DNA from: Linnemannia hyalina
Lineage: Eukaryota > Mortierellomycota > Mortierellomycetes > Mortierellales > Mortierellaceae
DNA: 64,000 bases
Assembly: GCA_019671135.1 (NCBI GenBank)
Contig: JAHRHY010000032.1
Coordinates: 61,474 to 125,473 of the forward strand
Direction of reading: 5' to 3'
Positions within the stretch are counted from its first letter, which is position 1. Every line of letters starts with the position of its first letter. The position numbers and the translations under genes are program-made. The notes beneath the pieces are model-generated. The model was not told where the DNA came from. It did not search any database and saw only the letters and a program-made list of their open reading frames with translations. This document shows positions 25,457-51,375 of this stretch, piece after piece.

Positions 25457-25468
25457 CTAGAATAGTAC

Positions 25469-25486
25469 CCGCGGCTTCGCTCGCGG
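25469..25486 (-). promoter_or_regulatory. Hel-1 3' terminal hairpin
   Basis: CCGCG and CGCGG arms enclose GC-GAA-GC with one bulged A. The GCGAAGC core is the DNA mini-hairpin known for exceptional stability. In Helitrons this hairpin acts as the rolling-circle terminator. The same hairpin is at 33484-33501 (nA) and 36427-36444 (nB). Confidence 0.88.
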
Positions 25487-25606
25487 AGGTGTTGGGTGAA
25501 AAAAAAAAAAAAAGAAAGCGAAATGGATGTGGTAATATTTATTTCTGTCTGTCACTGTCTCCCTTGATCCCTACCCTCCTTTTTTTTTTTCTTATGTCAT
25601 TTTTTT

Positions 25607-28600
25607 TTAGTCACTCAGGGCAAGAATCTCTGGGTAAACAACATTTGTTGTACAGCCATATGGTGTATCGGGACCCTCCCTCTCAATCAACACATGCACG
25701 TTGTTCTTGTTCGTCACTCGAGATAGGGCAACGTACAGTTGGCCATGGGCGAATACCGGCTTCTTGAGATAGATACCAACGGTGTCTAAAGTCTGACCTT
25801 GGGACTTGTTGATCGTCATTGCAAAGGCGGGTCGGATAGGGAACTGGAGTCGTCGGAACTTGAACGGCATATCGAGGTCAGAAGGGCAGATCGGGATTCG
25901 GGAAAGGAATACTTGATTGCCGGCATGTGTTCCTGTAATGATAGTGGCTCCCAAGACGTACCGTGAGAGCGATGTACATATGAGTCGCGTGCCATTGCAA
26001 AGTCCTTCCTGTGGCATGAGGTTTCGAAGGAGTATGACAGGACAACCCACGGTCAATCTCAGGCAGTGAGGAGGGAGCGAAGACGACTTGAGGCTGTTCA
26101 GAAACTCGATAGGAAACAGAGCGTCCACCCTATCGTCTTCTTTGTCGATGATGGAGTCCTGCGAGAGAAACTCTCTTGATTCCCCTTGTATGGCTGACAT
26201 GATGTGGTTGTTGACTTCATCGACGTTGTCGTTTGTTGGACAGAGCACTGCGCGCTGATTGAGATACTGGGCATTGCCAATATTGTGCTGGAGATCAGGG
26301 TAGACCTTGGCAATGAGATCGCCAATGTTGGCATTGGCTGGCATCACCATCTGGGGTGGAAGTGTGATGGTGGTGGAGATTCTGTGGTCTGGAGACGGGC
26401 CAGGAACAGTACCTTCTCCGACTTGAAGAAGCCAGTTTGCAAACCCGGTCTGTTCCTCGATGTCGGGAGCGTCGGCATTTCTGAGGAGGCGCATGTTGAC
26501 GGAAAGATGAAGGTGTTGAATGTGGTCCCAGAGTGGAGATCGTTTAAAGCAGGCTCCAATGGTTTCCTCTCTGCGGCCTTGCTTAACGACTGGAGGAATC
26601 TGCCTGAAGTCGCCGCCAAAGACCATGAGCTTTCCTCCAAAGGGACGATGTTCGTTCGCAGGGTCCACAGTCTTCATCAGGTCTTTGAGAGTGCGATCTA
26701 CAGCCTCAAAGATATGCCGATGCGTCATCGGAGCCTCGTCCCAGACAACGATCTTGGCCCGGATGAGAAGATTGGCAATTTCTGACCTGTGGTTGACTGA
26801 ACAAACGCTATCCTCGTGGGTAGGGACGGGAATCTTAAAGCGCGAGTGAGCGGTTCTTCCGCCTTGTAGGAGTAATGCGGCGATTCCAGATCCAGCAACG
26901 GCAAGAGCGATATCGCGATTCGACCGGACCATAGACAGGATTAGGGAGTACAGGAAGGTCTTTCCTGTACCTGCAGGACCATCGATGAAGTACGCCTCGG
27001 AAGAGTTCATCTCATAGGAGTGCTTGATTCGGTCGTATGCTTCCCTCTGATTCGCGTTGAGTGACTGCTCCATCATGGCGAAATCTTCTGCGCTGGGCAA
27101 AGGGTAATTCAACTCGTCTGCAATAAATGCATTTACGTTGGGACCATGCTGCTCCAGTATGACGGGCTCGGGCATGCCTTCGTAGTCGTGGAGAGTCTTG
27201 CCGAGGTTCCTCAGGAGAACTTGTAAGTGGATCAAGGCAGCATTTGCACGCTGGTCTGCAAAGGATTGTCGCTGCTCAAGGCTGGTAGCGTCACGTTCCC
27301 TTGGACGGAGATCATCAGACAGTGCATCGCGAAAGGTGGTCCAAAGCTGAGCAGGATTTGTCGGGTTGCAAAAGGCAAGAATCTTTGCAAAAAGGGAGCG
27401 GAGTTGGTATCCCGTTTGGCAGACTGCGGCATCCCGAAGACAGTTCTCCCACTCGCGATCATCTTGAAGCATGCCAAGGGCGATGCAGGCGGCCTTGAAC
27501 GTGGGGTGGACCTCGTTTTCGACTGTTCTTAGGCCCTCAAACGATATAGGACTTGGCACCGAGAGTAGTAGCAACCGCAAATAAAACAGATCGCCTGCGG
27601 TATCATGCACAAAAAAGAGTCGGCCGACTGTACATCCTCTCTCTCTGAGCTTCCATCGCTTTTCCCTCTTGAGGTAAACGTGGGTTTGAGGAAAGTCGTG
27701 GTACTTTGATGGCGGTTCGTCAGGATGGTCGCGGTTATAGTCGAAGAATGCAGTCAGCGTACTGCGCTCCAGTGCGGCTCTCTCTAGGACATCGGCGATG
27801 GGTTCGTCCGAGCGGAAGGCGTGCATGAACTGGCCGGGAAGATGCAAATGCAACCTGGTGACGGATGGATAGGCACTGTGTAGGCGGAATCCGAATATGC
27901 GCCAAGAAGACTCGGAGGCAGAGACATAGCGACCGTCGATGAAATCAATGATCTCGTTGACTTCTGGCACAGGTAGATCTCCGGCTCCGGCTTGAGCTCC
28001 GTCTTGTGCCGGCTGTTGAACCACAACAGTGGCTCGATCATGACCCTTGTAGACGTACTTGTAAAGATACTTGACCGCAGTGGAAGAGGTGCAGCTCTCG
28101 ACATTGATATGGGCACCATACTTTGCAGCCAGATAAGGGTTGTGCGGAACGACCCAACGGTTGTCAATCTCGAAATCTCCCCGGCCATCGATCCTGACTG
28201 TCCTTCCATCCATGCGGCGCCGGTACTGCGGATATCCATTTGGTCCGTTTGTGGTGGTTGCGAGGAAGGGCTTGGGATAGCCTTTGGTACACACGCCGTT
28301 CTCCATGCATGGAGAGTTCCTGTTTGCCGGTCCACATGGGCCATGGATCATGGATTTCACAACAGTCTCATAGGCGGCCGGATGAGTTGCAGGGTCAGGA
28401 ATCTCGGCAGAAATGTATTTGTCGTAGTCCTCAGGCAATCCAGGCTTGTGCTCGGGGCTCATGATGAGCAGAATGTGTGCATGGGGGAGTCCACGCTTCT
28501 GGAACTCAATGACATGAATCATGCCGACGACCTTTCCGAGGACATGGTTTTTCAACAGATCATGCAGGAGTTCCTTCAGCTTGATGTGAAAGACGCGGGT

Positions 28601-28630
28601 CGTGCAGCGAGGATACTCTCGTCCGAAACG
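25607..28630 (-). pseudogene. Helitron Rep / Pif1-type helicase (Hel-1)
   Basis: The open frame from 28555 to 25607 codes for 982 residues. The HUH nuclease motif is present (FQKRGLPHAHILL, His-Ala-His), followed by the Rep tyrosine motif (STAVKYLYKYVYKGHDRA). The helicase shows Walker A DGPAGTGKTFLY (about 26970), Walker B VVWDEAPMTHR, motif III VFGGDFRQIPPVV, then AMTINKSQGQTL and the arginine-finger YVALSRVT. The frame extends upstream as VFHIKLKELLHDLLKN, where a one-base shift near 28615 joins it to the preceding zinc-finger frame. About 350 residues of the usual Helitron N-terminal domain appear to be missing, so this is a near-complete but defective transposase. Confidence 0.9.
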
Positions 28631-29061
28631 GTGTCAAAGATGGTTTCGAGGTAGTCGCAGTTGTTGGAGTGACGCTTCTGGGAATGGCTGATCCTTGCAC
28701 TTGTCGTTTGCTTCCCTTTAAAGTATGGGCAGCGACGACTTGTTGACCTTTGGTGATCGTTTCCACGGCACCTGCTACACCTGCTAATAGGGGAAGAGGA
28801 GGAGGAAGAAGAAGCGATTGCATTGGGTGTGGTGATAGTGCTATTGATGGGAAGCGAGGAAGGAGAGGAGGGAGTGGTAACAGTAGATTTAGTGGCAGCC
28901 GTACGCCTGGTGGTGGTAAGGGAAGAGAACCTGACGGACTTGGTGGGCTGCGACCTTGTTGAGTTCGTCGCTCTAACCCGCTTGTATCCTGTAAAGGCTG
29001 TAGTTGAAGAGGTATCGATACTGGAGGTGGAGGTAAGAGGAGCACGGCGAGTGGAAGGCAT
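28576..29061 (-). pseudogene. Hel-1 N-terminal Rep segment with zinc finger
   Basis: ATG at 29061 (MPSTRRAPL), a Ser/Thr-rich region, then a Cys/His finger (CSRCRGNDHQRSTSRRC) and the start of the Rep domain (DYLETIFDTVSDES). This joins the helicase frame by a single-base shift. The same N-terminus starts the relicts in nA and nB. Confidence 0.7.
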
Positions 29062-29509
29062 GTTGAATGGTGACAGATGTGATGAAAATGAAATTTGGAG
29101 TTGTGGCTGATGAAAGACTGTAGTGTGAGGAATAAAGGAGCAAAAAAAAAAAAAAAAAAAGCACAAAAGCGAGGAAAAGAGTAGCAGCAAGCAAGTTATT
29201 AGAGAAGAAAAGGTTGTTGCTGGAGGATTCTAGAGGTTCTAGAGGACTCCCACTTTGCTTATTTAGCATTTCTTGGTCAGCAGATCCTCCTAGGGGACAC
29301 GCACTTCGCTTTCTGTGGGATACGCATACGCACTTTTGCTTAGTCAACATCAATCAACAACAATGGGAGGTGGAAATTTAGTGGCGTTCGTCAGGCACAC
29401 ACACAGCACACACGATAGACATAATACAATCATGTGATTTAGGAACGATTGATTGATTGTGACTGCGAACTATATCAGGTGATCACTACAGTCGCTTTGT
29501 ATTATTAGA
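29062..29509 (-). promoter_or_regulatory. Hel-1 5' terminal region
   Basis: Non-coding leader of Hel-1. It carries the TC terminus, a conserved subterminal stretch shared with nA and nB, a TCATGTGA palindrome near 29430 and a poly(T) run near 29150. Confidence 0.6.
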
Positions 29510-29515
29510 CTAGAA
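29510..29515 (-). other. Stranded 3' tail of Helitron nA
   Basis: These six bases read TTCTAG on the minus strand. nA at 33478 stops at GGGTACTA, six bases short of the GGGTACTATTCTAG terminus of Hel-1 and nB. The family-2 array lies between the two pieces at an A/T site. Confidence 0.85.
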
Positions 29516-29527
29516 CTAGAAAGGTTG

Positions 29528-29547
29528 CCCGTGGGCGATGCCACGGG
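29528..29547 (-). promoter_or_regulatory. Family-2 3' terminal hairpin (u1)
   Basis: CCCGTGG and CCACGGG arms around a six-base loop. Identical copies at 31064-31083 (u2) and 32266-32285 (u3). Confidence 0.85.
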
Positions 29548-30004
29548 TGCCGGAAGTTGCTGTAAGGGGGTCTGGGGTGAGGGGTGTGGGTCTTGGAAGG
29601 GTCTTTGAAGGGTGTTTGAAGGGTCTTTGAAGAAGACTCGTTTAAAGATAAGGGTGCCACTTGCCTATTACCTTTTTCCTTTTTCAAGTGTAGTGTGACT
29701 GTAAATTTTTCACAACTACCTGTGGCCAATGGCATGCTTGGGGAATGTAGAGCTCATACCTGTGGAGTTTCCTGTTGTGCCATAAAGAATAATATCCCTG
29801 GTCCCAGCTGGGCCCAGCTGACCTCCCTTATTAGATAGTCATCTTAGTAGCTGGGGAGCCATCCCCCTGGCCTTGTTTGTATTCATTATTCTCTCGGATC
29901 ACCCTCACTCGCAGTATATTCAAGATATCCTTGACTACCCTTTGCTCTACATCACGCCAGAGGATTTCTTGCTTTTTAGTAGGCTTGCGAAAAGGCTCGT
30001 TCAC

Positions 30005-31015
30005 AGCATACTGGCGCTTTGCGCTAGATGGCCCAGACGGCCACGCTCCAGCGGTCGCTTCCTTTTGCCGCAGGCGGCAATAGGGATCTGACAGCTACAG
30101 CTTTGCCCTTACGAAGTACTGGGGCTTTGCGCAAGAAAGTTTCTCTGGTTCGGGCTACGCCCTCATATCCTCTTGTCCCGTGCCCGTACGCTCGCTGCGC
30201 TCACAGGATACTGGCGCGCTTTGCGCAAGATACTCTTAATGGCCTTGCCCGTGACCATCGCTCGCTTCGCTTACAAAGTACGGGTGCTTGGCGCAAAAAA
30301 GGTCCTGGTTCGGGCTACGCCCTCACATCATCTTCTCCCTTTCGTACCCGTGCGGTCACAACATACTGGCGCTTCGCGCAAGATACTTTCGATTGTCTCG
30401 CCAGGGCGCGCGCCCGTGACCATTGCTCGCTGCGCTCACATCCTCTTCAAAGCCCCTTGATTCGGGCTACGCCCTCATATCCTCTTAGCCCGTGCCCGTA
30501 CGCTCGCTGCGCTCACAGGACACTGGCGCGCTTTGCGCAAGATACTCTTAATGGCCTTGCCCGTGACCATCGCTCGCTTCGCTTACAAAGTACGGGTGCT
30601 TGGCGCAAAAAAGGTCCTCTGGTTCGGGCTACGCCCTCACATCATCTTCTCCCTTTCGTACCCGTGCGGTCACAACATACTGGCGCTTCGCGCAAGATAC
30701 TTTCGATTGTCTCGCCAGGGCGCGCGCCCGTGACCATTGCTCGCTGCGCTCACATCCTCTTCAAAGCCCCTTGATTCGGGCTACGCCCTCATATCCTCTT
30801 AGCCCGTGCCCGTACGCTCGCTGCGCTCACAGGACACTGGCGCGCTTCGCGCAAGATACTCTTGATGGCCTTGCCCGTGACCATCGCTCGCTTCGCTCAC
30901 AAAATACTGGCGCTTCGCGCAAGACACAGGCGCTTCGCGCTGGCGCTACGCGCAAGATACTGGTGAGGGCCACGGCCCTCACAACATTTTTAGTTCGGGC
31001 TCCGCCCTCACGTGA
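30005..31015. repeat. Array of short hairpin modules in u1
   Basis: Dozens of self-complementary GC-rich motifs are spaced every 15-40 bases: GGGCTACGCCC, GCGCTTCGCGC, GCGCTTTGCGC, GGGCTCCGCCC, GCTCGCTTCGCTC and a longer GTGAGGGCCACGGCCCTCAC. Most have a three-base loop that is GNA on the minus strand (GTA, GAA, GGA). The same modules fill u2 (about 31515-32215) and u3 (about 32740-33440). Confidence 0.8.
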
Positions 31016-31051
31016 TATACAGAAATCGTTATTTTTTTAAAGAGAAAGAGA

Positions 31052-32253
31052 CTAGAAAGGTTGCCCGTGGGCGATGCCACGGGTGCCGGAAGTTGCTGTA
31101 AGGGGGTCTGGGGTGAGGGGTGTGGGTCTTGGAAGGGTCTTTGAAGAAGACTCGTTTAAAGATAAGGGTGCCACTTGCCTATTACCTTTTTCCTTTTTCA
31201 AGTGTAGTGTGACTGTAAATTTTTCACAACTACCTGTGGCCAATGGCATGCTTGGGGAATGTAGAGCTCATACCTGTGGAGTTTCCTGTTGTGCCATAAA
31301 GAATAATATCCCTGGTCCCAGCTGGGCCCAGCTGACCTCCCTTATTAGATAGTCATCTTAGTAGCTGAGGAGCCATCCCCCTGGCCTTGTTAGTATTCAT
31401 TATTCTCTCGGGTCACCCTCACTCGCAGTATATTCAAGATATCCTTGACTGCCCTTTGCTCTACATCACGCCAGAGGATTTCTTGCTTTTTAGTAGGCTT
31501 GCGAAAAGGCTCGTTCACAGCATACTGGCGCTTTGCGCTAGATGGCCCAGACGGCCACGCTCCAGCGGTCGCTTCCTTTTGCCGCAGGCGGCAATAGGGA
31601 TCAGACAGCTACAGCTTTGCCCTTACGAAGTACTGGGGCTTTGCGCAAGAAAGTTTCTCTGGTTCGGGCTACGCCCTCATATCCTCTTGTCCCGTGCCCG
31701 TACGCTCGCTGCGCTCACAGGATACTGGCGCGCTTTGCGCAAGATACTCTTAATGGCCTTGCCCGTGACCATCGCTCGCTTCGCTTACAAAGTACGGGTG
31801 CTTGGCGCAAAAAAGGTCCTCTGGTTCGGGCTACGCCCTCACATCATCTTCTCCCTTTCGTACCCGTGCGGTCACAACATACTGGCGCTTCGCGCAAGAT
31901 ACTTTCGATTGTCTCGCCAGGGCGCGCGCCCGTGACCATTGCTCGCTGCGCTCACATCCTCTTCAAAGCCCCTTGATTCGGGCTACGCCCTCATATCCTC
32001 TTAGCCCGTGCCCGTACGCTCGCTGCGCTCACAGGACACTGGCGCGCTTCGCGCAAGATACTCTTGATGGCCTTGCCCGTGACCATCGCTCGCTTCGCTC
32101 ACAAAATACTGGCGCTTCGCGCAAGACACAGGCGCTTCGCGCTGGCGCTACGCGCAAGATACTGGTGAGGGCCACGGCCCTCACAACATTTTTAGTTCGG
32201 GCTCCGCCCTCACGTGATATACAGAAATCGTTATTTTTTTAAAGAGAAAGAGA
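31052..32253 (-). mobile_element. Helitron family 2, unit u2
   Basis: Second unit of the concatemer, 1202 bp, directly abutting u1 and u3 with no base between CTAG and the next TC. It equals u3 minus a 22-bp deletion in the GGGTCTTTGAAGGGT repeat near the 3' end. Confidence 0.9.
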
Positions 32254-33477
32254 CTAGAAAGGTTGCCCGTGGGCGATGCCACGGGTGCCGGAAGTTGCTG
32301 TAAGGGGGTCTGGGGTGAGGGGTGTGGGTCTTGGAAGGGTCTTTGAAGGGTGTTTGAAGGGTCTTTGAAGAAGACTCGTTTAAAGATAAGGGTGCCACTT
32401 GCCTATTACCTTTTTCCTTTTTCAAGTGTAGTGTGACTGTAAATTTTTCACAACTACCTGTGGCCAATGGCATGCTTGGGGAATGTAGAGCTCATACCTG
32501 TGGAGTTTCCTGTTGTGCCATAAAGAATAATATCCCTGGTCCCAGCTGGGCCCAGCTGACCTCCCTTATTAGATAGTCATCTTAGTAGCTGAGGAGCCAT
32601 CCCCCTGGCCTTGTTAGTATTCATTATTCTCTCGGGTCACCCTCACTCGCAGTATATTCAAGATATCCTTGACTGCCCTTTGCTCTACATCACGCCAGAG
32701 GATTTCTTGCTTTTTAGTAGGCTTGCGAAAAGGCTCGTTCACAGCATACTGGCGCTTTGCGCTAGATGGCCCAGACGGCCACGCTCCAGCGGTCGCTTCC
32801 TTTTGCCGCAGGCGGCAATAGGGATCAGACAGCTACAGCTTTGCCCTTACGAAGTACTGGGGCTTTGCGCAAGAAAGTTTCTCTGGTTCGGGCTACGCCC
32901 TCATATCCTCTTGTCCCGTGCCCGTACGCTCGCTGCGCTCACAGGATACTGGCGCGCTTTGCGCAAGATACTCTTAATGGCCTTGCCCGTGACCATCGCT
33001 CGCTTCGCTTACAAAGTACGGGTGCTTGGCGCAAAAAAGGTCCTCTGGTTCGGGCTACGCCCTCACATCATCTTCTCCCTTTCGTACCCGTGCGGTCACA
33101 ACATACTGGCGCTTCGCGCAAGATACTTTCGATTGTCTCGCCAGGGCGCGCGCCCGTGACCATTGCTCGCTGCGCTCACATCCTCTTCAAAGCCCCTTGA
33201 TTCGGGCTACGCCCTCATATCCTCTTAGCCCGTGCCCGTACGCTCGCTGCGCTCACAGGACACTGGCGCGCTTCGCGCAAGATACTCTTGATGGCCTTGC
33301 CCGTGACCATCGCTCGCTTCGCTCACAAAATACTGGCGCTTCGCGCAAGACACAGGCGCTTCGCGCTGGCGCTACGCGCAAGATACTGGTGAGGGCCACG
33401 GCCCTCACAACATTTTTAGTTCGGGCTCCGCCCTCACGTGATATACAGAAATCGTTATTTTTTTAAAGAGAAAGAGA
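32254..33477 (-). mobile_element. Helitron family 2, unit u3
   Basis: First unit of the concatemer in the direction of transfer, 1224 bp, the simplest version. Its 5' TC at 33477 follows the A of the broken nA tail, so the concatemer as a whole is inserted at a canonical A/T site. Confidence 0.9.
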
Positions 33478-34489
33478 TAGTACCCGCGGCTTCGCTCGCG
33501 GAGGTGTGGGGCAGGTGTGAATTGACAAAAAAGTGGTGGTGGTTGAATATTGCAAAGTTTATTTGTGATTGTCAGTTCCTCATTTCTCTCTCGCTTTTCT
33601 ATTTGATTTTTTTTTTTGCCTTCACTTTTTTTTTCGTTTTGCCCTCCCTTCCTTATTTTTTGACGTCGTATTTCCACAACTCGTGACGGCGCGCCAGGCC
33701 TGACTGATCCAAGCCACGGCCACGGGAAGGAAGTGTGAGACGGACCCCTGGGAGCCCGAATGCCTATAGTTACACAACTTGGGTCGTATGAATGCCATGA
33801 AGTGGCGAGCACCGAGCCAGCCCCCCGCATCCCCAACGCGACCTGTCAGGTGAGATGAGTCGAGATCTCGGGTCAAAGATATTATGCAGCAGTCTCCTTT
33901 CTTTCCTTTAAATGCAATACCATCTTACCATGTAAGTGTTGTACAACCTTCTCGTCCGCCTCACTCAGACCTTGTTTGACAAATCGACTCGTTGCCTTGG
34001 CGGGCCAAATCCTGTCCCTGTCGGTTTCCCTCTCTTGCTCAAACCCGCCTTCTTCTCGAGCTGTTATTTCTTGGGTCTTCCCCTATTCGACCGTCGCCCT
34101 TGCAACGTACGTGCCATATCTCCATACTTCCAAAGTCTTCTATCGCACTTGCAATACCTTTTTTTCTTTTTGCCTCCCTCTGGCAGACGGTCAACGCATG
34201 TCACGGTTCTTTGAGCTGGTACCAAAGGACGTAAAGGCAATGGCATTGTTGAAGGTCCGGATGGTTACAAGAAATAGCCCGGAGAAAAAGGTACCACCTC
34301 TGAAAGGCTTTGTAATTCATCAAGGGAAGCTTCAATGACCGGCGTTTTGACTCTTAGACAGCAGAAAGCGTAGATTGGCGATTGTACGTCCAACACACTC
34401 CTGCGTTTCAAAAGAAATGATTAAATCGGTATCAATAAAAAGAGGGACGGATATAAATTAGCTGTAGGTAATATCGTAGACGGTTACCT

Positions 34490-34798
34490 CTATCCAATGT
34501 AAAGCACACAATGAGAGCATACCACGCTCATCGATCCCATGATCATGTACACTGTGTTGTCCTGATTCTTAACAGCTATTCTATTTCCAAAAACACTTAG
34601 ATCAGCAGGAGCAACAGGAGCAGCAGGGGCAACAGGAGCAGCGGGAGCAGCAAGGACCGTAGAAGGAGTAGGAGCAAGAGATTCTGCAACGATCATGCGC
34701 TGCCTGCTCATAAGGCAATCCGGATGAGTTGTACAATGATGATGGAGTTGTCTGCAAGCATTACAGTTCATAGCAGAGGACTGAGGTGCATCATGCAA
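34490..34798 (-). CDS. Small Cys/His-finger ORF in nA
   Basis: A 102-codon frame with the finger CNACRQLHHHCTTHPDC (C-x2-C-x4-H-x4-H-x2-C), then an Ala/Pro/Val repeat and a VFGNRIAVKNQDNTVYMI tail. A homologous frame with the same finger is in nB at 37480-37788. Similar fingers are found in transposon proteins, but this may be a remnant exon. No known function. Confidence 0.4.
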   Translation of the reverse strand: MHDAPQSSAMNCNACRQLHHHCTTHPDCLMSRQRMIVAESLAPTPSTVLAAPAAPVAPAAPVAPADLSVFGNRIAVKNQDNTVYMIMGSMSVVCSHCVLYIG

Positions 34799-34931
34799 TG
34801 CGATGGCAATAGCTTGCTCATGTTACCTAAATGGGTCGGAATGGTTGGCGCCGGGCTGGAACCATGCGTGGCTGCTACAATCATGCGTGACTGGGACAAC
34901 CTGTGTCAGCCGGCTGTTCTCCTTCAGTAGG

Positions 34932-35249
34932 CGAGGGCTTGGGATCCCGTTTGGCGTAGTAGTAAAGCGTCCTCCTCGCAATTTTGAGGTCCTGGGTTCG
35001 AGTCCTAGGAGAGCGTTTGACTTGGCGCATGATCTCCTCATCTTACACTCAAAGAGTTGAGGGCTCCCCCCTCTTCTACAGCACAAAGTCTTCCCTCAAA
35101 TTCAGAGTCTTGCCGCTGCCCCCTACACATTTCTTTCTCAAGTACCGCCTTTAGAAATAAAAAAAACCCTGGTGGCTTGTTGCACCACTGGGGCTGTTCT
35201 CTCCTTACTGAGCCTTCCTATGGGAAGGTTCAATTTAAACAAAAAAATC
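34932..35249 (+). mobile_element. tRNA-derived SINE in nA
   Basis: Absent from nB at the matching place. Flanked by an imperfect 10-bp duplication (CTTCAGTAGG 34922-34931, CATCAGCAGG 35250-35259; the uninserted nB site reads CTTCAGCAGG). The head has RNA polymerase III boxes: A-box-like TGGCGTAGTAG (34952-34962) and a perfect B box GGTTCGAGTCC (34995-35005). The body is unrelated to known genes and the 3' end is A-rich (AAACAAAAAAATCC). Confidence 0.8.
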
Positions 35250-35560
35250 CATCAGCAGGTCGTCGTTGTCGCTTATGTTACCTAAATGGGCCGGAATGGT
35301 AGGCCTTAGGCTGGAAGCATTCTCCCGGTACCAATGCCTCCGCCGCCTGATCGATGGCCCATCTTCACCCCCTTCACCCTCCCACTGAACCGTTGTCTAA
35401 CTTGTAGTCTCAAACTATTGAACCACGTCAGCAATTGCGGCGTAAGCATCCTCGTCTGAAATAGCATCAAAGCTTGTTTCGCAGTTGTCGTCATTATAAA
35501 TTAGGAGTTGTGCTGCAAAGAGGCGGCAATCCGAGCAATTGTGGTCTGTTTGCCCTAAAA

Positions 35561-35956
35561 TTACCGTTTGTTTTCATTTATAGTAGGGTCAGTGACAACT
35601 TGTCGACCTTTGGTGGCCGTTTCCACGTCCACAATACTTGGCACACCTACTGATGGAGGAGGAAGAGGAGGGAAAAGAGAGAAAAGAGGGGGGGAAAGAA
35701 GAGGAGGAAGAAGAAAAAGAGGAGAAATGAGGAGGAAGAGTAAGGGGTGATGGGATTGAGTTTGGCAGTGATCGTGGTGGTACATTTGGTGGAAAGGAAG
35801 TGCAGAGTGGAGGAAGTAGAGGGCGCGGTAGCAGTAGATCGACCTTGTTGAGTTGGTCGCCTTGGTACGTCTGTATCCTGTAAAGGCCGTAAAAGGAACG
35901 ACATCGGGCGCGGAAGTGGTGGTAAGAGTGACACGGTGAGAGCGAGTGGAAGGCAT
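35561..35956 (-). pseudogene. Relict of Helitron Rep N-terminus in nA
   Basis: Starts at the ATG at 35956 with MPSTRSHRVTL and TAFTGYRRTKATNSTRS, matching the Hel-1 N-terminus at 29061. It soon loses frame in a Pro/Leu/Ser-rich stretch. The zinc-finger coding sequence is still recognisable near 35600. A 30-base poly(A) (plus strand) and an AGGAA repeat lie just upstream. Confidence 0.65.
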
Positions 35957-35973
35957 ACTGGCTACTGACAGAT

Positions 35974-36006
<33 letters not shown>

Positions 36007-38776: not shown

Positions 38777-39477
38777 TATGCTGGCTACTGACAGATAAAA
38801 AAAAAAAAAAAAAAAAAAGAGAAAGGAAGGAAAGAAAATATGCTTGTCCGTGAAAGAGAAAGAAAAGTCATCGGCTCTACTCTCTCCATTCTCCATTTTC
38901 GCATCTTAACATGCTTACTGCTTACCGGCAGATCTTCTTACCGGCGTGGCTCTCATTCCGCAGTCGCATTTTAACATGGTTACCGGCAGATCTGCTTACC
39001 GGTATGACTCTGATTGCAACCCCCATCCATCTCTCATTTTAATTTAATTAACTTTAAACTAAAAAAAACGCACACAGCACACACAACACACACAACACAC
39101 ACAAACACTTACACACACACTACACATACACCATACACACCATACACACACCACAACACCACACACACCACAACACCGTGAGAAAGAGAAAGAGGGAACA
39201 TCACATGATTTACGATAAGTCAGGTGATGGAGATAACGATTTTGTATTAGTAGATACTAGCAAGTGGCCGCGGCTACGCCGCGGGCGCTGCGCCGGTTTC
39301 TCGATTCCCAGGCTTTGGTGTGTAAGGGCTAGAGGTGTTGCCGTCCTGGGGTTTTTCCTCATTCATTTTGCATGTGTTTTTTCAAAAGGGGAGAATATTT
39401 ATTAGAAAAAAAAAGTGAGTGTGAACTCTTCCAAAATAAAAATACATTTTTGATTGAATCTATGGTGTGGGGTATGA

Positions 39478-42396
39478 TTACAGGACTCTCTTATAGACAA
39501 CGTTTCTAGTGTATGTGCCCTCAAGCCCGGGGATGCTGCCGTCGATGATAAGAACCTTGACATTTTTTTCGTCTGTGCATCGAGAAAGAGCAACATAAAG
39601 CTGACCATGTGTGAACACAGGAGTAGGGAGATAGAGTCCGACATTTTCAAGGGTCTGACCCTGCGCCTTGTTGATCGTCATGGCAAAGGCAGGCCTGACC
39701 GGGAACTGTCGTCTCTTGAATGTGATCGGGGTGGACTTGTCGTCTGTTGTTAAAATCGGCACTCGTGGGATGAAGACCAAGTCGGTGGCAAAAGGTCCCG
39801 TCAGGATTGTTGCCATGATGCAGCGTGGCCTGAGCCGGCGGACAATCAAGCGAGTTCCGTTGCAGAGTCCTTTTTTTTGGTCCACATTTCGGAGGAGAAT
39901 GATGGGCATACCAACTTTCAGCACCAGCTTGTAGGGTGGTAATCCAGTGGGGTCCAAAGAGTTGAGATACTCTGTAGGACAGTTGGCGACGCCGTTGGTG
40001 TCTGAATCCAGAACGGAGTCTTGGCCAAGGTACTCTGTTGCCTTGCCAGGAAGTAGTGTGGTCGGGAGGTTGTTCATGTAATTGACATCCTTGTTCAGTG
40101 TTGTCAAAATATCGGTGCGCTTGATGTCGTGAGGTGCAAAGTTGCCGATGGAGATATTGGGGTAGATGGTGCGGATAAGTTGGATCTCGTGCTCGTTGCT
40201 GAGATTGGGTCCATGTGGTGTAAAAAGGATGTCGTCTGGAATCCTGATATAATCATCAGAGTCGCCAAGGAAAATGTCTGCTCCTTGCCTTCGCCCACAT
40301 GTAGCAAAAAATCGACGAACGAAAAAGAGCTGCTCTTGTCCTCCATGACTCGCATATTGCGAGTTAGCTTGAGTGTCTTGACCTTGGGCCAAATGGTGCC
40401 AGACATCTTTAGACATGCGCCCTCGATCTGAGACTGAGATCCATTAACAACCACCGGCAAGACCTGTCGAAAGTCACCACCGAACACGACAATCTTTCCG
40501 CCGAAAGGAACCAAGGGTCGATCCATAATATGTCGAACGATCCGGTCCACCGACTCAAAGACATGTCGATGCATCATGGGTGCCTCATCCCAGATGATGA
40601 GGTCGGCCGCATGAATAATGGATCCGACTTGTTGCTCGCGGGTGATATTGCAGGTCGAGTCTTTGAAAACTGGATTGGGGAACTTGAAGACAGAGTGTGC
40701 AGTACGTCCACCGTGAAGGATCAGAGCTGCTATACCGGACGACGCGAGGACAATAACATTCTTTTTCATAACACCACTGATTTGTTCAATTAGTGTGTTG
40801 TAGAGAAAGGATTTGCCGGTACCACCTGGTCCGTCAATAAAATAGAGGTTGGTCCTTCGGGGGCGGATGGGTATGGAGACGGAGGCGATGATTTCGTCAA
40901 ATATTACCCGCTGCTCGACATTCAAGGCTTGAATGTGGGAACCCGCCAGCTTGGCGAGCTCTTCACGTGATTTTTCGCTGTGGTTGGAGGCGGACTTTGG
41001 GATGTAGCGGAGAATGCTGTCGCTGATGTCTTGTGGCATAGTGGGAAAGGCGGCCAGAGAAGGGAGACAGAACCTCTCGCCGTCCTTAGGCTGGACAAAG
41101 TAGATCCGGGCAATCTTGAGGGTGTCCTTTTGATTCCTCTTGTCCCACTTGCGATTGTTTTGGTCGTAGGTGTAATGCTCGCGAATCTCGGCGTATGTAT
41201 ATTTATGTGCGTCCTTGTCCTCTTGGTTCAGCTTAAAGTAGGCCATCAGTTGACTGTCGTTGTTACGGCGGATGACACAAAGTAGATCCGCGTTTTTGTC
41301 AAAGGTGACGTTGTGCTGGCCTATGAGATGGACATGTAGACGTTGCACAGCAGGTGAACGACCGTACAAAGGATATCCAAGGATGCGCCACATGCTCTCA
41401 TGGGAAGAGAGGTATCTCATATCGCGAAATTCGCCAATCTCGATGCGTGAAGGATGCTATTATACAAACGATAGCAAACAAAAAGAGAGTGAGAAAAAAT
41501 AGTAAGCAAGGTGTTGCAATGGTCAGACATCCAGGGAAAAAAATGCGCAAAAAAAGTACCTCCTTGCTTGCTGCATTTTTTTGGGTGTGCAGCGATTGAG
41601 CCTTCAGTGGCGGTGGTGTTATACCCTGTAGCGGTAGCTGTGGCAGTGGCGGCGCTGCTGCTGGTGCTGGTGCTAGTGCTAGTGCTAGTGCTAGTGTTGG
41701 TGCTGGTGGATGCAAAGACGACGATGGGATTGATCAGTGGAGGCAAACAGAAGACCCTTCTTTTTCGAGGGCGATCTTGGCTCTGCTCGGTCCATTGGGA
41801 AAATGAAAAATGAAAAATAGTAATTTGTGTATGTCCATTGATGCTTTGACTTCTGTGCTGCGATACTATTGTTTCTTTTGCTTTGATAGAAATAAGGGGG
41901 CAATGAACAAAAGACATACCTTACGGATGTGCTCGTATAAATATTTCACGGCAGAGACGGAAAACCATATCTCGACATTGAGGTGGGTGTTGAACTTGGT
42001 TGCCAGCCAAAGGTTGTGAGGCACGACCCAGCTATTGTCGATCTCTGTCGGGAGATTATCGGCCAGTTCTATTTAGTTACACCTTCCGGCACAGGCATCC
42101 AAGGTCGCCCTCTTAGTCCCAAAAGACCTGGCAAGATGTTCAAGGTGGCCGACAGGATTCCGGCCATCACACCCACACTTGGTGCACATGCTTCTGGAGG
42201 TGGGAACTGGCGTGCGCGTGTTCGTGATGCTGTTGGAGCCGCAGACGTTGGCGTTGGAATTAGTACCGCTAGTGCTGGTGGTACTGGTGGTGCTGGTGGT
42301 GCTGGTGGTGCTGGTGGTAATGGTGGTGGATGATGGTGCCGCTTCCGATTCCTCATCAGTCTCCTCTTCAACAATCATTCGCCGTCGCTTGTCCAA
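39478..42396 (-). pseudogene. Helitron Rep / Pif1-type helicase, copy 3a
   Basis: Reading from 42396: Ser/Thr-rich start, a Cys cluster (CTKCGCDGRNPVGHLEHLARSFG), then EIDNSWVVPHNLWLATKFNTHLNVE and the Rep Tyr motif SAVKYLYEHIRK. A 463-bp intron (donor GTATGT at 41919, acceptor TAATAG at 41457) follows, and the helicase continues in phase (HPSRIEIGEFRDMRYLSS). Helicase motifs: FIDGPGGTGKSFLY, IIWDEAPMMHR, VFGGDFRQVLPVV, AMTINKAQGQTL, YVALSRCTDEKN. Lesions: TAA near 42074 where 3b has Gln, and a one-base shift after HVGEGKEQ near 40300 that is shared with 3b. The HUH nuclease part is missing. Confidence 0.85.
41457..41919 (-). other. Probable intron in Helitron 3a Rep-helicase
   Basis: GTATGT donor directly after the codons for EHIRK and an AG acceptor in phase 0; the sequence between holds (CTAGCA)n and CAGCAGC repeats. 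An equivalent intron lies in 3b at about 46548-47004. Confidence 0.65.
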
Positions 42397-43479
42397 CTTA
42401 ACCGAGGTTGTCCCAACAATGGGCGGGCGATCGCTATTGATGGTGCCGTTTTGGTAGGCATCGTAAATGTCTATTGAAAAGACATTGTCAAATTGCCATT
42501 CGTCAGCAAATCACTCAGGACGTCAATGAAATCATTGTCGTCATTGAATCCATAGTCTTTGTCCGTGTCCTGACCAGTGACAGGGACGGCGATAGTAGGT
42601 GTATTGTTGCTAGAGACGTTTTTTGCAACCTGCTTCTGCTCTTGCTTCTGCCCCTGCTCCTGCTCCTGCTTCTGCCTCTGCTCCTGCTCCTGCTTCTGGT
42701 CTTGAGTTGAGTTGGTCCTGAAAAAGACCCTTAATCGACGTCCACTTACCTTTGAAGTTGGCGTTGGGGTGGGGAACAACAGTGGCAACCTTGGGCTTGA
42801 AACCCCGGAGGTGTGTATACGCATCCTCAATACGTAATGTTGTCGGGGACAGGGTCATGAACAGGAGCCGTTGAGATCAAGATGCTTCTGCTGTCGATAT
42901 CAGAGGTCATGTTGTTGACGGGGACATCAGGGGTTGGATCAGAGACATTCACGATAGTTGCATTGTCGTTCTACGTATCGTCTGTATTGCAGCGCCTGCG
43001 ATTATTGAGAGTGGTGCGCCCTTTACAATGCGCTGCAGTAGCCGAACCAAGACCTTAGAGCTCAAAGAGGACTGTTGCCTGCGATAAGTAGGAAACAGTA
43101 CTAAAGGTCAGGGATGAACAGAAATGAACATAAATAACATAGTTGCATATAGACACTGACATAGACTTACTTTGGAGCAGCAGCAGAAGAACGGGTTCCG
43201 GTACGGGTATAAAGAGGCGTGGATGGTTTGCGCATGTTGAAGAGGATAAAACTTGAGACTGTAGAAGATATGTCAAAATATGGTCAAGGATTAATGAGAA
43301 TCGATACTGAGAATTATGAGACGCTTACCCTTTTCTAAAAGAGAAATAATACAACCTCTTCACTCTCCTTGTGCCACGACATACCGTTACCCTACTGTTC
43401 ACTGACCATGCTCAGTAGATTGGCGTCTGTGTTCTCTTCATTCTTGTTCTTCCTTGTGGTATGTGTGCTCGCGTCTTCG

Positions 43480-43800
43480 TGTTTGTCCATGCCAAGCTGA
43501 GTCCTCATGTCTGTCCATGCTGAAAAGGATGGTGTATGGTCGAATATGTCAATGGAAAGAAAGAGAGGAATATTTTATTTCACACCTTAGAGGGGGTAAT
43601 ATGCGTACGCAACCCACTCTGATAGTGACGTTCTCACTTTGGTGTTATCATGAGTCTGGTGCATTTTTTTAAAAAAAAAAGGGCCAAGCTGCATCTTCAT
43701 GTCTGTCCATGCCAAGCTGCATCCTCATGTCTGTCCATTCCATGCTGCGTCTGCATTCTCATGTCTCATTTTGTCCATGCCATGCTGGTGGATGTCTTTT
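43480..43800 (+). repeat. Short tandem repeat near the 5' end of 3a
   Basis: Irregular units of about 27 bases built on GTCCATGCCAAGCTG and TCCTCATGTCT, repeated at least five times. The same repeat is at 48549-48869 in 3b. Confidence 0.75.
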
Positions 43801-43913
43801 TTGTTTCTGGTGTCGTTTGTTGCTTGCTGTTGTTGCTATTGTTGTTTGTTGCTTTCTGTTGCAGTTTTTGTTGTTGTAAAAGAAAAGAAGGGGTGGGTTA
43901 AAAAAAAGGGGTG

Positions 43914-43929
43914 ATGTTATCGATAACAT
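43914..43929. repeat. Perfect 16-base palindrome, 5' subterminal in 3a
   Basis: ATGTTATCGATAACAT, about 85 bases inside the 5' end; also at 48983-48998 in 3b. Could be a protein binding site; no partner known. Confidence 0.6.
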
Positions 43930-44383
43930 GATGTCAAGCATGGAGACGCCACGCGGTTGTGCAATTATGCAATTACAGAAAGGTTGTGTATATCATGTGA
44001 TTTATCCCTCGTGGATTTTAGTATACTAGCAAGTGGCCGCGGCTACGCCGCGGACGCTGCGCCGGTTTCTCAATTCCCAGGTTTGGTGTGTAAGGGCTAG
44101 AGGTTGCCGACCAGGGGTCTTTTCTCATTCATTTTGGATGTGTCTTGACTTCAAAGGGGGGAAAATAATATTAGGAATAAAAAAGTGAGCCAGCAAAAAG
44201 GATGAGAGGACTGATCTAAAGAACGGGCGAGCATTGTTCACTCTTTTAACATTCTGATCGATTCTATGGTGTAGGGTATGATTACGGAACTCTCTTATAG
44301 ACATCACTTCTAGTGTATGTTCCCTCAAGCTCGGGGATGCTGCCATGGATCATAAGAACTTTGACATTTTTGATGTCTGCGCA

Positions 44384-47300
44384 TCAAGAAAGAGAAATAT
44401 AAAGCTTACTGTGTGTGAACACAGCAGTAGGGAGATAGAGTCCGACATTTTCAAGGGTCTGACCCTGCGCCTTGTTGATCGTCATGGCAAAGGCAGGCCT
44501 GACCGGGAACTGTCGTCTCTTGAATGTGATCGGGGAGGACTTGTCGTCTGTTGTTAAAATCGGCACTCGTGGGATGAAGACCAAGTCGGTGGCAAAAGGT
44601 CCCGTCAGGATTGTTGCCATGATGCAGCGTGGCCTGAGCCGGCGGACGATCAAGCGAGTTCCGTTGCAGAGTCCTTTTTTTTGGTCCACATTTCGGAGGA
44701 GAATGATGGGCATGCCAACTTTCAGCACCAGATAGTAGGGAGGTAATCCAGTGGGGTCCAAAGAGTTGAGATACTCTGTAGGATAGTTGGCGACGCCGTT
44801 GGTATCTGAATCCGGAACGGAGTCTTGGCCAAGGTACTCTGTTGCCTTGCCAGGAAGCAGTGTGGTCGGGAGGTTGTTCATGTAATTGACATCCTTGTTC
44901 AATGTTGTCAAAATAGCGGTGTGTAACAGGATTGTAGATTGCCTCCTGCTTTTGGCTGCCTTGTTCCTTACTTCCTTGTTAATATCTTGTGTATCTGTCT
45001 TACACACTACCCCTGCTTATTATTACCTCACCATCATCCCTCATACCATAGACGTATAAATACCCTGTCCCTTCTGTACAATAAACCTCATTCCTTCTTG
45101 CCCTTTCCTCTTGTCCCTACACCCTCTTGTCTCTTTCCCTTGCTATCCTCCTTGGCTCTTGTCTTCCTTCCTTGTCCTCACCCTTGCCTCTTCTCTCTTG
45201 CTCTGCTCCTATTACACGGTGCGCTTGATGTCGTGAGGTGCAAAGTTGCCGATGGAGATATTGGGGTAGATGGTGCGGATAAGTTGGATCTCGTGCTCGT
45301 TGTTGAGATTGGGTCCATGTGGCGTAAAAAGGATGTCGTCTGGAATCCTGATATAATCATCAGAGTCGCCAAGGAAAATGTCTGCTCCTTGCCTTCACCC
45401 ACATGTAGCAAAAAATCGACGGAAGAAAAAGAGCTGCTCTTGTCCTCCATGACTCGCATATTGCGAGTTAGCTTGAGTGTCTTGACCTTGGGCCAAATGG
45501 TGCCAGACATCTTTAGACATGCGCCTTCGATTTGAGACTGAGATCCATGAACAACCACCGGCAATACCTGTCGAAAGTCAACACCGAACACGACAATCTT
45601 TCCGCCGAAAGGAACCAAGGGTCGATCCATAATCCGGTCCACAGACTCAAAGACATTTCGATGCATCATGGGTACCTCGTCCCAGATGATGAGGTCGGCC
45701 GCATGAATAATGGATACGACTTGTTGCTCGCGGGTGATATTGCAGGTCGAGTCTTTGAAAACTGGAATGGGGATCTTGAAGACAGAGTGTGCAATGCGTC
45801 CACCATGAAGGATCAGAGCTGCTATACCGGATGACGCGAGGACAACAACATTCTTTTTCAGAACACCACTGATTTGTTCAATCAGTGTGTTGTAGAGAAA
45901 GAATTTGCCGGTGCCACCTGGTCCGTCAATAAAATAGAGGTCGGTCCTTTGGGGGCGGACGGGTGTGGAGACAGAGGCGATGACTTCGTCAAATATTACC
46001 CAATGCTCGACATTCATGGTTTGAATGTGAGGCCCGCCAGCTTGGCGAGCTCTTCATGCGATTTTTCGCTGTGGTTGGAGGCGGACTTTGGGATGTAGCG
46101 GAGAATGCTGTCGCTGATGTCTTGTGGCATAGTGGGAAAGGCGGCCAGAGAAGGGAGACAGAACCTCTCGCCGTCCTTAGGCTGGACAAAGTAGATCCGG
46201 GCAATCTTGAGGGTGTCCTTTTGATTCCTCTTGTCCCACTTGCGATTGTTTTGGTCGTAGGTGTAATGCTCGCGAATCTCGGCGTATGTATATTTATGTG
46301 CGTCCTTGTCCTCTTGGTTCAGCTTAAAGTAGGCCATCAGTTGACTGTCGTTGTTACGGCGGATGACACAAAGTAGATCCGCGTTTTTGTCAAAGGTGAC
46401 GTTGTGCTGGCCTATGAGATGGACCTGTAGACGTTGCACAGCAGGTGAACGACCGTACAAAGGATATCCAAGGACGCGCCACATGCTTTCATGGGAAGAG
46501 AGGTATCTCATATCGCGAAATTCGCGAATCTCGATGCGTGAAGGATGCTATTATACAAACGATAGCAAACAAAAAGAGAGTGAGAAAAAATAGTAAGCAA
46601 GGTGTTGCAATGGTCAGACATCCAGGGAAAAAAATGCGCAAAAAAAGTACCTCCTTGCTTGCTGCATTTTTTTTGGTGTGCAGCGATTGAGCCTTCAGTG
46701 GCGGTGGTGTTATACCATGTAGCGGTAGCTGTGGCAGTGGCGGCGCTGCTGCTGGTGCTGGTGCTAGTGCTAGTGCTAGTGTTGGTGCTGGTGGATGCAA
46801 AGACGACGATGGGATTGATCAGTGTAGGCAAACAGAAGACCCTTCTTTTTCGAGGGCGATCTTGGCTCTGCTCGGTCCATTGGGAAAATGAAAAATGAAA
46901 AATAGAAATTTGTGTATGTCCATTGATGCTTTGACTTCTGTGCTGCGATACTATTGTTTCTTTTGCTTTGATAGAAATAAGGGGGCAATGAACAAAAGAC
47001 ATACCTTACGGATGTGCTCGTATAAATATTTCACGGCAGAGACGTAAAACCATATCTCGACATTGAGGTGGGTGTTGAACTTGGTTGCCAGCCAAAGATT
47101 GTGAGGCACGACCCAGCTATTGTCGATCTCTGTCGGGAGATTATCGGCCAGTTCTATTTGGTTACACCTTCCGGCACAGGCATCCAAGGTCGCCCTCTTA
47201 GTCCCAAAAGACCTGGCAAGATGTTCAAGGTGGCCGACAGGATTCCGGCCATCACACCCACACTTGGTGCACATGCTTCTGGAGGTGGGAACTGGCGTGC

Positions 47301-47463
47301 ACGTGTTCGTGATGCTGTTGGAGCTGCAGACGTTGGCGTTGGAATTAGTACCGCTAGTGCTGGTGGTACTGGTGGTGCTGGTGGTAATGGTGGTGGATGA
47401 TGGTGCCGCTTCTGATTCCTCATCAGTCTCCTCTTCAACAATCATTAGCCGTCGCTTGTCCAA
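44384..47463 (-). pseudogene. Helitron Rep / Pif1-type helicase, copy 3b
   Basis: Same structure as 3a. Differences: the codon that is TAA in 3a is Gln here, so the first exon is open; a one-base deletion near 46015 splits the helicase; the Walker A Ser is Phe (GGTGKF); four codons are lost after ESVDRI; a solo LTR interrupts the frame at 44922; and the motif VI region YVALSR has become YISLS-stop. The HVGEGKEQ frameshift is shared with 3a, so the parent was already damaged before duplication. Confidence 0.84.
44922..45216. mobile_element. Solo LTR, 295 bp, in Helitron 3b
   Basis: Begins TGTAACAGG, ends CTATTACA, and is flanked by a perfect 5-bp duplication CGGTG (44917-44921, 45217-45221); 3a has the uninterrupted site. 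Contains a TATA box (TATAAATA, about 45055) followed by an AATAAA signal (about 45081), giving plus-strand polarity. Not related to the other LTRs here. Confidence 0.93.
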
Positions 47464-47537
47464 CTTAACCGAGGTTGTCCCAACAATGGGCGGGCGATCG
47501 CTATTGATGGTGCCGTTTTGGTAGGCATCGTAAATGT

Positions 47538-48021
47538 CTATTGAAAAGACATTGTCAAATTGCCATTCGTCAGCAAATCACTCAGGACGTCAATGAAATC
47601 ATTGTCGTCATTGAATCCATAGTCTTTGTCCGTGTCCTGACCAGTGACAGGGACGGCGATAGTAGGTGTATTGTTGCTAGAGACGTTTTTTGCAACCTGC
47701 TTCTGCTCCTGCTTCTGCCCCTGCTCCTGCTCCTGCTTCTGCCTCTGCTCCTGCTCCTGCTTCTGGTCTTGAGTTGAGTTGGTCCTGAAAAAGACCCTTA
47801 ATCGACGTCCACTTACCTTTGAAGTTGGCGTTGGGGTGGGGAACAACAGTGGCAACCTTGGGCTTGAAACCCCGGAGGTGTGTATACGCATCCTCAAAAT
47901 ACGTAATGTTGTCGGGGACAGGGTCATGAACAGGAGCCGTTGAGATCAAGATGCTTCTGCTGTCGATATCAGAGGTCATGTTGTTGACGGGGACATCAGG
48001 GGTTGGATCAGAGACATTCAC
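47538..48021 (-). pseudogene. Possible upstream coding segment of Helitron 3b with Gln/Glu repeat
   Basis: Open frames include DYGFNDDNDFIDVLSDLLTNG and an AYTHLRGFKPKVATVVPHP segment separated by a hexanucleotide repeat coding for Gln-Glu/Gln-Lys. 3a has the same at 42471-42960. Probably upstream exons of the Rep gene or of a lost accessory gene. Confidence 0.35.
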
Positions 48022-49260
48022 GATAGTTGCATTGTCGTTCTACGGTTCGTCTGTATTGCAGCGCCTGCGATTATGGAGAGTGGTGCGCCCTTTACAATGC
48101 GCTGCAGCAGCCGAACCAAGACCTTAGGGCTCAAAGAGGACTGTTGCCTGCGATAAGTAGGAAACAGTACTAAAGGTCAGGGATGAACAGAAATGAACAT
48201 AAATAACATAGTTGCATATAGACACTGACATAGACTTACTTTGGAGCAGCAGCAGAAGAACGGGTTCCGGTACGGGTATAAAGAGGCGTGGATGGTTTGC
48301 GCATGTTGAAGAGGATAAAATTTGAGACTGTAGAAGATATGTCAAAATGTGGTCAAGGATTAATGACAATCGATACTGAGAATTATGAGACGCTTACCCT
48401 TTTCTAAAAGAGAAATAATACAACCTCTTCACTCTCCTTGTGCCACGACATACCGTTACCCTACTGTTCACTGACCATGCTCAGTAGATTGGCGTCTGTG
48501 TTCTCTTCATTCTTGTTCTTCCTTGTGGTATGTGTGCTCGCGTCTTCGTGTTTGTCCATGCCAAGCTGAGTCCTCATGTCTGTCCATGCTGAAAAGGATG
48601 GTGTATGGTCGAATATGTCAATGGAAAGAAAGAGAGGAATATTTTATTTCACACCTTAGAGGGGGTAATATGCGTACGCAACCCACTCTGATAGTGACGT
48701 TCTCACTTTGGTGTTATCATGAGTCTGGTGCATTTTTTTAAAAAAAAAAGGGCCAAGCTGCATCTTCATGTCTGTCCATGCCAAGCTGCATCCTCATGTC
48801 TGTCCATTCCATGCTGCGTCTGCATTCTCATGTCTCATTTTGTCCATGCCATGCTGGTGGATGTCTTTTTTGTTTCTGGTGTCGTTTGTTGCTTGCTGTT
48901 GTTGCTATTGTTGTTTGTTGCTTTCTGTTGCAGTTTTTGTTGTTGTAAAAGAAAAGAAGGGGTGGGTTAAAAAAAAGGGGTGATGTTATCGATAACATGA
49001 TGTCAAGCATGGAGACGCCACGCGGTTGTGCAATTATGCAATTACAGAAAATTGGTGTATATCATGTGATAAAGAGACATTGATTTTAATATATGAGATG
49101 AGACTTCAGCGCTCAAAAAAAAAAAAAAAAAAAAAGCCTTTTCCACAACAAAACCAAACCCTATCTTCTTCAAGTTCTTTCCTCTTTTACTACCATCTTC
49201 TGTACACAACCCACTACCCTCAGAAACTACAACAACTCTTCACTTTCCGTATCAACTACA

Positions 49261-50556: not shown

Positions 50557-50570
50557 ACAGTAAAGTTGGA

Positions 50571-51370: not shown

Positions 51371-51375
51371 TTGGC

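Follow-up and report, generated by a model that had tools for sequence, protein, structure and literature searches.

How did eight Helitrons of three families come to lie in a single head-to-tail array, in which the terminal CTAG of one unit repeatedly touches the initial TC of the next? The question is posed by a nest on the minus strand of the 64,000-nucleotide stretch of Linnemannia hyalina DNA analysed here (the window), where all eight units listed in a preliminary description are present in the assembled sequence, in the order f3c1, f3c2, nB, nA, u3, u2, u1 and Hel-1. That description had set the nest's edge at 49083; the family-3 end instead lies at 49098, and a displaced TCTCA extends the nest, which begins at 25457, to 49103. 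TC starts and GC-rich hairpin/CTAG ends were borne out at the ends of all eight units, the TC of f3c2 being displaced to 49103-49102. Family 1 comprises Hel-1 (25457..29509, 4053 bp), which starts with TCTAATAATAC, ends with GGGTACTATTCTAG and carries a 982-aa reading frame, and the non-autonomous nB (36415..39254, 2840 bp) and nA (main part 33478..36414, 2937 of 2943 bp). Family 2 comprises u3 (32254..33477, 1224 bp), u2 (31052..32253, 1202 bp) and u1 (29516..31051, 1536 bp), the last with one additional 312-bp internal repeat copy. Family 3 comprises f3c1 (44026..49098, 5073 bp, starting with TCTCATATATTAAAATC) and f3c2, whose main part (39257..44025) runs from TATACTAAAATCC through CTAG, has fragmented helicase frames and is separated from nB by a 2-bp TA spacer (39255..39256).

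Four CTAG/TC joins are exact at the base level, namely nB/nA (36415|36414), u3/u2 (32254|32253), u2/u1 (31052|31051) and nA tail/Hel-1 (29510|29509). The proposed stacking of the families at A/T sites is likewise seen in two nested insertions. Family 2 entered nA at GGGTACTA/TTCTAG, where u3 now sits, and severed its last 6 bp (TTCTAG, 29510..29515), which are the one displaced CTAG noted earlier; f3c1 interrupts f3c2 after the first five bases of its left end (TCTCA | TATACTAAAATCC), which are cut off at 49099..49103. From the exact joins the preliminary description had argued that serial insertion is excluded and rolling-circle read-through implied. This does not follow: the flanking A and the first T of an older element together form an A/T target, so that serial insertion at that element's TC also leaves CTAG/TC. 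Helitrons are usually held to require only A/T as target. The nest is best read, with good though not complete confidence, as a stack of independent canonical Helitron insertions, each made at or near the left end of an earlier unit.

A census of the 51.5-Mb genome, allowing up to 3 mismatches, detected 149 3' ends (71 of family 1, 48 of family 2 and 30 of family 3). Given these family sizes, and zero matches to reversed-pattern controls in the same genome-wide search, chance matching is excluded as an account of the nest ends. The elements have the features of canonical Helitrons (Helitron1): a 5' TC, a 3' CTRR, a hairpin (an inverted repeat recognized by eye) before the end, and insertion between A and T without target duplication. 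T directly follows 146 of the 149 3' ends, and A precedes all 17 family-2 5' ends that lack a preceding CTAG; the family-1 5' side is weaker, with A at 23/41 such ends and T in its place at 15/41. The 982-aa frame of Hel-1 matches the PIF1 helicase (E=9.5e-78), and its Helitron_like_N match covers just the end of the profile (163-191 in one search, 140-191 of 191 in another); full-length matches to the latter are present elsewhere in the genome.

Of the 149 3' ends, 60 (11/71 in family 1, 34/48 in family 2 and 15/30 in family 3) fall at -5 to +23 bp from a same-strand Helitron left end (LTS), these counts being inflated by events that are partly non-independent through segmental duplication and possibly composite movement. 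At 35 of the 60 the LTS adjoins at gap 0, a number that becomes 31 when only window elements serve as references (C44:2735468, with 6 bp intervening, being excluded), 8 of the 14 LTS references having been derived, with some circularity, from the junction flanks themselves. The flanks were 110 bp long (just 72-81 bp for some ends), and two 20-25 bp matches (C19:270013 and C3:1958222) were dropped as chance. Only four 3' flanks fall inside known Helitron DNA away from an LTS, and LTS sites account for 17 of the 2844 oriented A/T sites across the nest's eight elements. Local clustering combined with random insertion is ruled out as the sole cause, since nearly all matches in known Helitron DNA are at an LTS; binomial figures calculated alongside serve as description only, the events not being independent. 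Only in family 2 does left-end insertion predominate; it accounts for about half of family 3 and is not the rule for family 1, as 60 of its 71 3' flanks match no window element, one of those 60 adjoining a related left end.

The preference also crosses family boundaries. Thirty of the 60 LTS-adjacent ends are heterologous, 10 of them at gap 0, and eight of these 10 joins read CTAG/TC letter for letter; of the other two, C49:2214681 reads CTAG|TATCAT and C13:443050 relies on a self-derived reference. In addition, 7 of 24 family-2 5' ends have GGGTAC[TC]A, belonging to a family-1 right end, immediately before them. Joins between different families could not be produced by read-through of one element, in which the terminator is missed, the circle is traversed more than once and the resulting multimer is inserted. 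Such concatemers would account for the exactness of the joins and for the fact that u3 and u2 differ solely by a 22-bp indel, and Helraiser circles with exact CTAG/TC are on record (PMC5876387). They would not produce the family-2 insertions scattered 2, 4 and 6 bp from LTSs.

The kinship of the units points the same way. Read-through leads one to expect sister units, yet 12 of 16 family-2 array units are nearest to a unit elsewhere, with one tie and three (C22b, C22c and C26u1) slightly nearer to their array neighbour; C22a was omitted from this comparison because its left end was not detected. The unit u2 is identical to C13:513069-514270, a copy without a family-2 neighbour. Nor are the family-1 units sisters: nB and nA share 81-84% identity over their main blocks, and Hel-1 resembles them in little besides the ends. 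The nearest relatives of Hel-1 are on C13, C5 and C12 (99.3-99.5%), that of nA is C5:1715991 (99.66%) and that of nB is C13:504282 (about 99%, the nB identities being diluted by overlapping secondary matches). Unit kinship and heterologous joins rule out read-through for most joins, and as an explanation of the nest it is very improbable. As a point against stacking, some family-2 exact joins could stem from TTCTAG slippage. Homologous recombination of Helitron circles into resident copies would also give exact joins within one family, and circles with joined ends are described for Helraiser (PMC4778049, PMC5876387) and probably for Fusarium (PMC5148889); it could yield neither heterologous joins nor insertions 2-6 bp off an LTS, and in most arrays examined neighbours are not nearest relatives, which leaves this route scarcely credible.

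Chains of at least two units number 25 in the genome. The nest is the longest found, in keeping with the unusual size ascribed to it; it is not unique as a mixed assembly, because contigs C44 and C49 also carry three-family chains. In five of six arrays, with one tie, the greatest nearest-unit distance is held by the 3'-most unit, and the arrays look like stacks with the oldest unit on the 3' side. A few chance adjacencies might instead have arisen once and then been copied as blocks, either by a transposase running from a left LTS to a later terminator or by subtelomeric duplication. Several observations fit such copying: a join of the nB 3' part to nA recurs at C5 and C26 with differing 3' flanks, one locus is present in duplicate on C10 and C50, and of the 77 3' ends on contigs larger than 1 Mb, 50 are no more than 150 kb from a contig end, a zone that makes up 13.6% of those contigs. 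Likewise, C29, C42 and C44 have the 3' flank of an nB copy in common; they offer no clean empty site, because C29 does not match C44 in its 5' flank and C42 begins within the upstream element. Against block copying stand the 42 distinct classes of LTS-adjacent end (by family, LTS type, gap and gap sequence), far above a few founder events, and the fact that LTSs of one kind show different gaps. We consider it unlikely as the main source of the arrays.

Under stacking at left ends, a newcomer would enter in the same orientation at an A/T at or a few bases from a resident LTS, and its CTAG would then adjoin, or nearly adjoin, the resident TC. The 5' (left) edge would be the growing side of the array, with a flanking A once more next to the newest LTS. 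Because a join turns A/T into G/T, a further insertion there would have to use a nearby A/T, such as ACTA|TTCTAG, 6 bp upstream in the right end of family 1, or TCTCA|TATA, 5 bp into the left end of family 3. The cause may be recognition of the LTS by the transposase, which has to recognize and nick it to initiate transposition and may also capture an LTS, or LTS-like DNA, as target. Such capture would extend across families with a common subterminal TCACNTGA, which every one of the eight nest elements has at +28 to +37.

In 22 of 48 family-1 host flanks a TACAAA-like word starts between +4 and +12, versus 1-7/48 in nine same-strand control windows, near the position where the family-1 LTS has TACAAA. 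By contrast, TCACNTGA is no more frequent in these flanks than in controls (1/48 versus 1-3), so it is not a general target. Among copies without an LTS match it is found (7 or 8/8 letters, start +24 to +44) in 4/12 of family 2 and 1/11 of family 3, against 0-1 in four control windows each, and may mark either undetected left ends or a target word. It is conceivable, if somewhat short of an even chance, that these Helitrons are self-homing and that the protein surface which recognizes the LTS for nicking also picks the target, the ideal target being the left end of another Helitron, across families. Equally tentatively, host targets would then mimic the LTS, through TACAAA for family 1 and, in the case of families 2 and 3, perhaps through TCACNTGA.

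Precedents exist in the literature. In the maize r1 region two adjacent different Helitrons are joined CTAG/TC, and the authors propose insertion at a host A and an element T (Du et al. 2008, PMC2267711); that account concerns one pair, leaves the insertion order open and, in the part used, describes no genome-wide target bias. According to the same source, exact head-to-tail joins in Myotis lucifugus (Pritham and Feschotte 2007) were read as tandem repeats since a host A was expected, an argument that, on the present data, need not hold. Helibat/Helraiser elements share TC...CTAG ends and an A/T target with the nest families, some copies are inserted directly beside another Helitron, and their circles also have exact joins (PMC4778049, PMC5876387). 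In contrast, 701 Helraiser retranspositions showed no clustering at donor sites (PMC4778049), which counts against left-end targeting. In Fusarium one FoHeli4 is inserted upstream of a second, 2 bp from its 5' end, and three tandem copies in Metarhizium (M. acridum) were attributed to 5'-end insertion or rolling circle (PMC5148889); unlike the nest families, these are Helitron2-type elements with other termini, and isolated cases. Maize Helitrons, "preferentially inserted near other ones" (PMC3288121), resemble the nest in clustering, the cited part giving no base-level position.

Tandem Helitrons were thus already known, and what appears new is their frequency here and the precision of the joins across families. 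The debate over whether CTAG/TC tandems reflect read-through or serial insertion has, in the sources at hand, been built on single cases; about 150 ends of one genome indicate that in these three families such tandems originate mostly by insertion. This suggests that the left end of a Helitron can itself be a strong target for Helitrons; how a RepHel transposase chooses its target thereby becomes directly testable, and the arrays would offer a clock-like record of family activity. If a shared recognition surface does direct elements to left ends, the arrays would be stacks ordered in time, preserving the succession of active families and giving the elements a safe landing place.

All eight units of the Helitron nest were located, as the preliminary description had them, on the minus strand at 25457-49103 of the window, which is C26:61474-125473; the genome totals 51.5 Mb and is split into 50 contigs (C-numbers). 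They run head to tail as f3c1, f3c2, nB, nA, u3, u2, u1, and Hel-1, with Hel-1, nA, and nB forming family 1, the u units family 2, and the f3c units family 3. Four joins, nB/nA, u3/u2, u2/u1, and nA tail/Hel-1, are exact, i.e., the CTAG of one right (3') end directly abuts the TC of the next left (5') end (gap 0). The family-2 trimer (u3, u2, u1) is inserted at GGGTACTA|TTCTAG, 6 bp ahead of the nA end, which accounts for the displaced CTAG of nA; the uninterrupted form, GGGTACTATTCTAG, occurs at dozens of family-1 ends elsewhere in the genome. Similarly, f3c1 is inserted at TCTCA|TATACTAAAATCC, 5 bp within the left end of f3c2, whose displaced TCTCA lies at 49103-49099 (minus strand), and the uninterrupted form, TCTCATATACTAAAATCC, is found on C44 and C13. 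The 3' flank of Hel-1 (25456-25430, minus strand), TAATAATAAAAGCAACTG, looks like a family-1 left end that has decayed, and given this flank the whole nest may be seated on an older left end.

Hel-1 has a 982-aa frame with a PIF1 helicase match and only the end of Helitron_like_N, and in family 3 the helicase is broken up among short frames. Among the best 120 of 4916 matches, the closest proteins are 80-85% identical and lie on 3.7-4.7-kb contigs; lower matches include proteins of Rhizophagus irregularis (47%) and, at 46% each, Mucor saturninus and Coffea arabica. Just beyond the left edge of the nest are Ty3/gypsy-type retrotransposon frames (49588-54750, plus strand; gag; RT, RNase H, integrase, chromodomain), and sequence near 49224 has 40 genome matches, its own site counted. 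Non-LTR-type frames on the minus strand encode RT and endonuclease at 20817-23927 and, at 13239-14792, RT beside a DNA N6-adenine methyltransferase (Dam) match, which is odd within a reverse-transcriptase frame.

Such an array could arise by serial insertion at left ends or, as the preliminary description preferred, by rolling-circle read-through into a concatemer, the exact CTAG|TC join having been taken to rule out serial insertion. According to PMC2267711, Pritham and Feschotte argued likewise from exact joins in 2007. However, the left edge of a Helitron at A|TC...CTAG|T is itself an A|T, formed by the A in front of the element and the element's first base, and a second insertion there gives A|TC...CTAG|TC...CTAG|T. 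Because this leaves no base between the units, the two models yield identical joins, and the exclusion of serial insertion falls away. In maize, insertion at the left-edge A|T is proposed for one Helitron pair (PMC2267711), and Helitrons are said to insert preferentially near others (PMC3288121). The open-access literature, as far as covered, offers isolated examples of adjacent insertion but no census in which left ends emerge as a common Helitron target.

Right-end patterns of all three families and left-end patterns of families 1 and 2 were searched genome-wide with up to 3 mismatches, and flanking DNA was drawn from the window plus other genome regions. This detected 149 right ends (71, 48, and 30 for families 1, 2, and 3) and 57 family-1 and 24 family-2 left ends, with zero matches for reversed-pattern controls. 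A T directly follows 146 of the 149 right ends, and 60 of the 149 have a same-strand Helitron left end at -5 to +23 bp (11/71, 34/48, and 15/30 by family). The gap is 0 at 35, of which 31 are retained with the window's own elements as the sole reference. Half of the near-left-end cases (30 of 60) join different families, 10 of them at gap 0, and 8 of these 10 are letter-perfect CTAG|TC. Four of the eight go from family 2 to family 3 (C13:702178, C13:754995, C22:35098, C44:2747256) and four from family 3 to family 1 (C13:744076, C19:588353, C44:2742482, C49:2219456). Exact joins thus also occur between families, which counts against read-through. When cases identical in family, left-end type, gap, and gap sequence are merged, 42 classes remain. 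Four right ends face known Helitron DNA elsewhere (2 deeper in nB on the same strand, 2 located 65-77 bp into a left end on the opposite strand), and left-end A|T sites make up 17 of the 2844 oriented sites (0.6%) in the window's eight elements. Flanks matched none of these elements at 85 of the 149 right ends, 2 of which met a related family-1 left end with wider references. Linked joins form 25 chains with at least two detected right ends, and all three families are present in chains on C26 (the window), C44, and C49.

On contigs over 1 Mb with matches, the outermost 150 kb at contig ends, 13.6% of these contigs, hold 50 of the 77 Helitron 3' ends, and the 930-kb C13 holds 26 more; a subtelomeric bias is possible. 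Genome-wide, of the 41 family-1 5' ends lacking a preceding CTAG, 15 have T instead of the expected A before the presumed start, several reading CT|TCTACTAATAC. Three family-2 and family-3 right ends, at C7:1740661 (minus), C13:444268 (plus), and C14:840120 (plus), lead into a shared or similar 3' flank; it has TGTTAA close to its start and ACGTGA farther along, and could be a left end from a fourth Helitron family.

Units within an array are mostly not sisters. Comparisons among 16 family-2 units from six arrays, extended to six additional copies, placed 12 nearer to a unit at another locus and 3 slightly nearer to a neighbor, with 1 tie. The four units of the C5 array are at least 14 changes apart, and three have relatives elsewhere at 1-3 changes. 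In the nest, u2 is identical to a C13 copy (1202/1202), u3 is separated from both by a single 22-bp indel, and between u1 and u3 there are 5 substitutions and a 312-bp repeat; with so few differences, the trimer alone is indecisive between the models. The family-2 units (29516-33477) carry internal repeats about 314 bp apart, with one extra copy (312 bp) in u1 relative to u2 and u3. In family 1, nB and nA align mainly in two blocks, over which they are 81-84% alike, and what Hel-1 has in common with them is limited to its ends and short stretches; close relatives are at C5:1715991 for nA (99.66%), C13:504282 for nB (~99%), and C13:422034 for Hel-1 (99.5%). The 3'-most unit is farthest from its nearest relative in five of six arrays and tied in the sixth, as 5'-edge growth of arrays would predict, in an order test chosen after seeing the data.

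At a CTAG|TC join the boundary is G|T and the A|T is gone. GGGTAC[TC]A of the family-1 right end directly precedes 7 of the 24 family-2 left ends, and in 6 of these 7 another left end comes straight after the displaced tail, which is TTCTAG (single or double) or, in one case, TCTAG; two of these following left ends lack the first TC. Even these family-2 insertions therefore used an A|T close by, just a few bases upstream from a left end. The seventh, C13:756218, directly adjoins a family-3 left end with the tail missing, which could reflect slippage between copies of TTCTAG.

A TACAAA-like word, matching at 5 or more of its 6 letters, starts at +4 to +12, most commonly +7, in 22 of 48 de-duplicated family-1 host flanks that lack a left end; the nine control windows on the same strand gave 1-7 of 48, and the eleven on the opposite strand gave 0-5. 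A ten-letter test scored the family-1 flanks 5.96 versus 5.02 for shuffled ones (s.d. 0.14). The family-1 left end itself has TACAAA at +9. All eight window elements have TCACNTGA at +28 to +37, a word found at 0.05 per kb and strand in the window outside the nest, and no excess of it was found in the family-1 host flanks.

The nB end joined to nA recurs at C5 with a different 3' flank, and composite movement accordingly may well take place too. The position, orientation, cross-family joins, and non-sister units observed in the arrays are most likely explained by capture of left ends as target by the transposase, the protein-level cause that we infer. Initiating transposition requires this enzyme to locate and nick left ends, and it would also take left ends or their look-alikes as target, across families that have a subterminal word in common.
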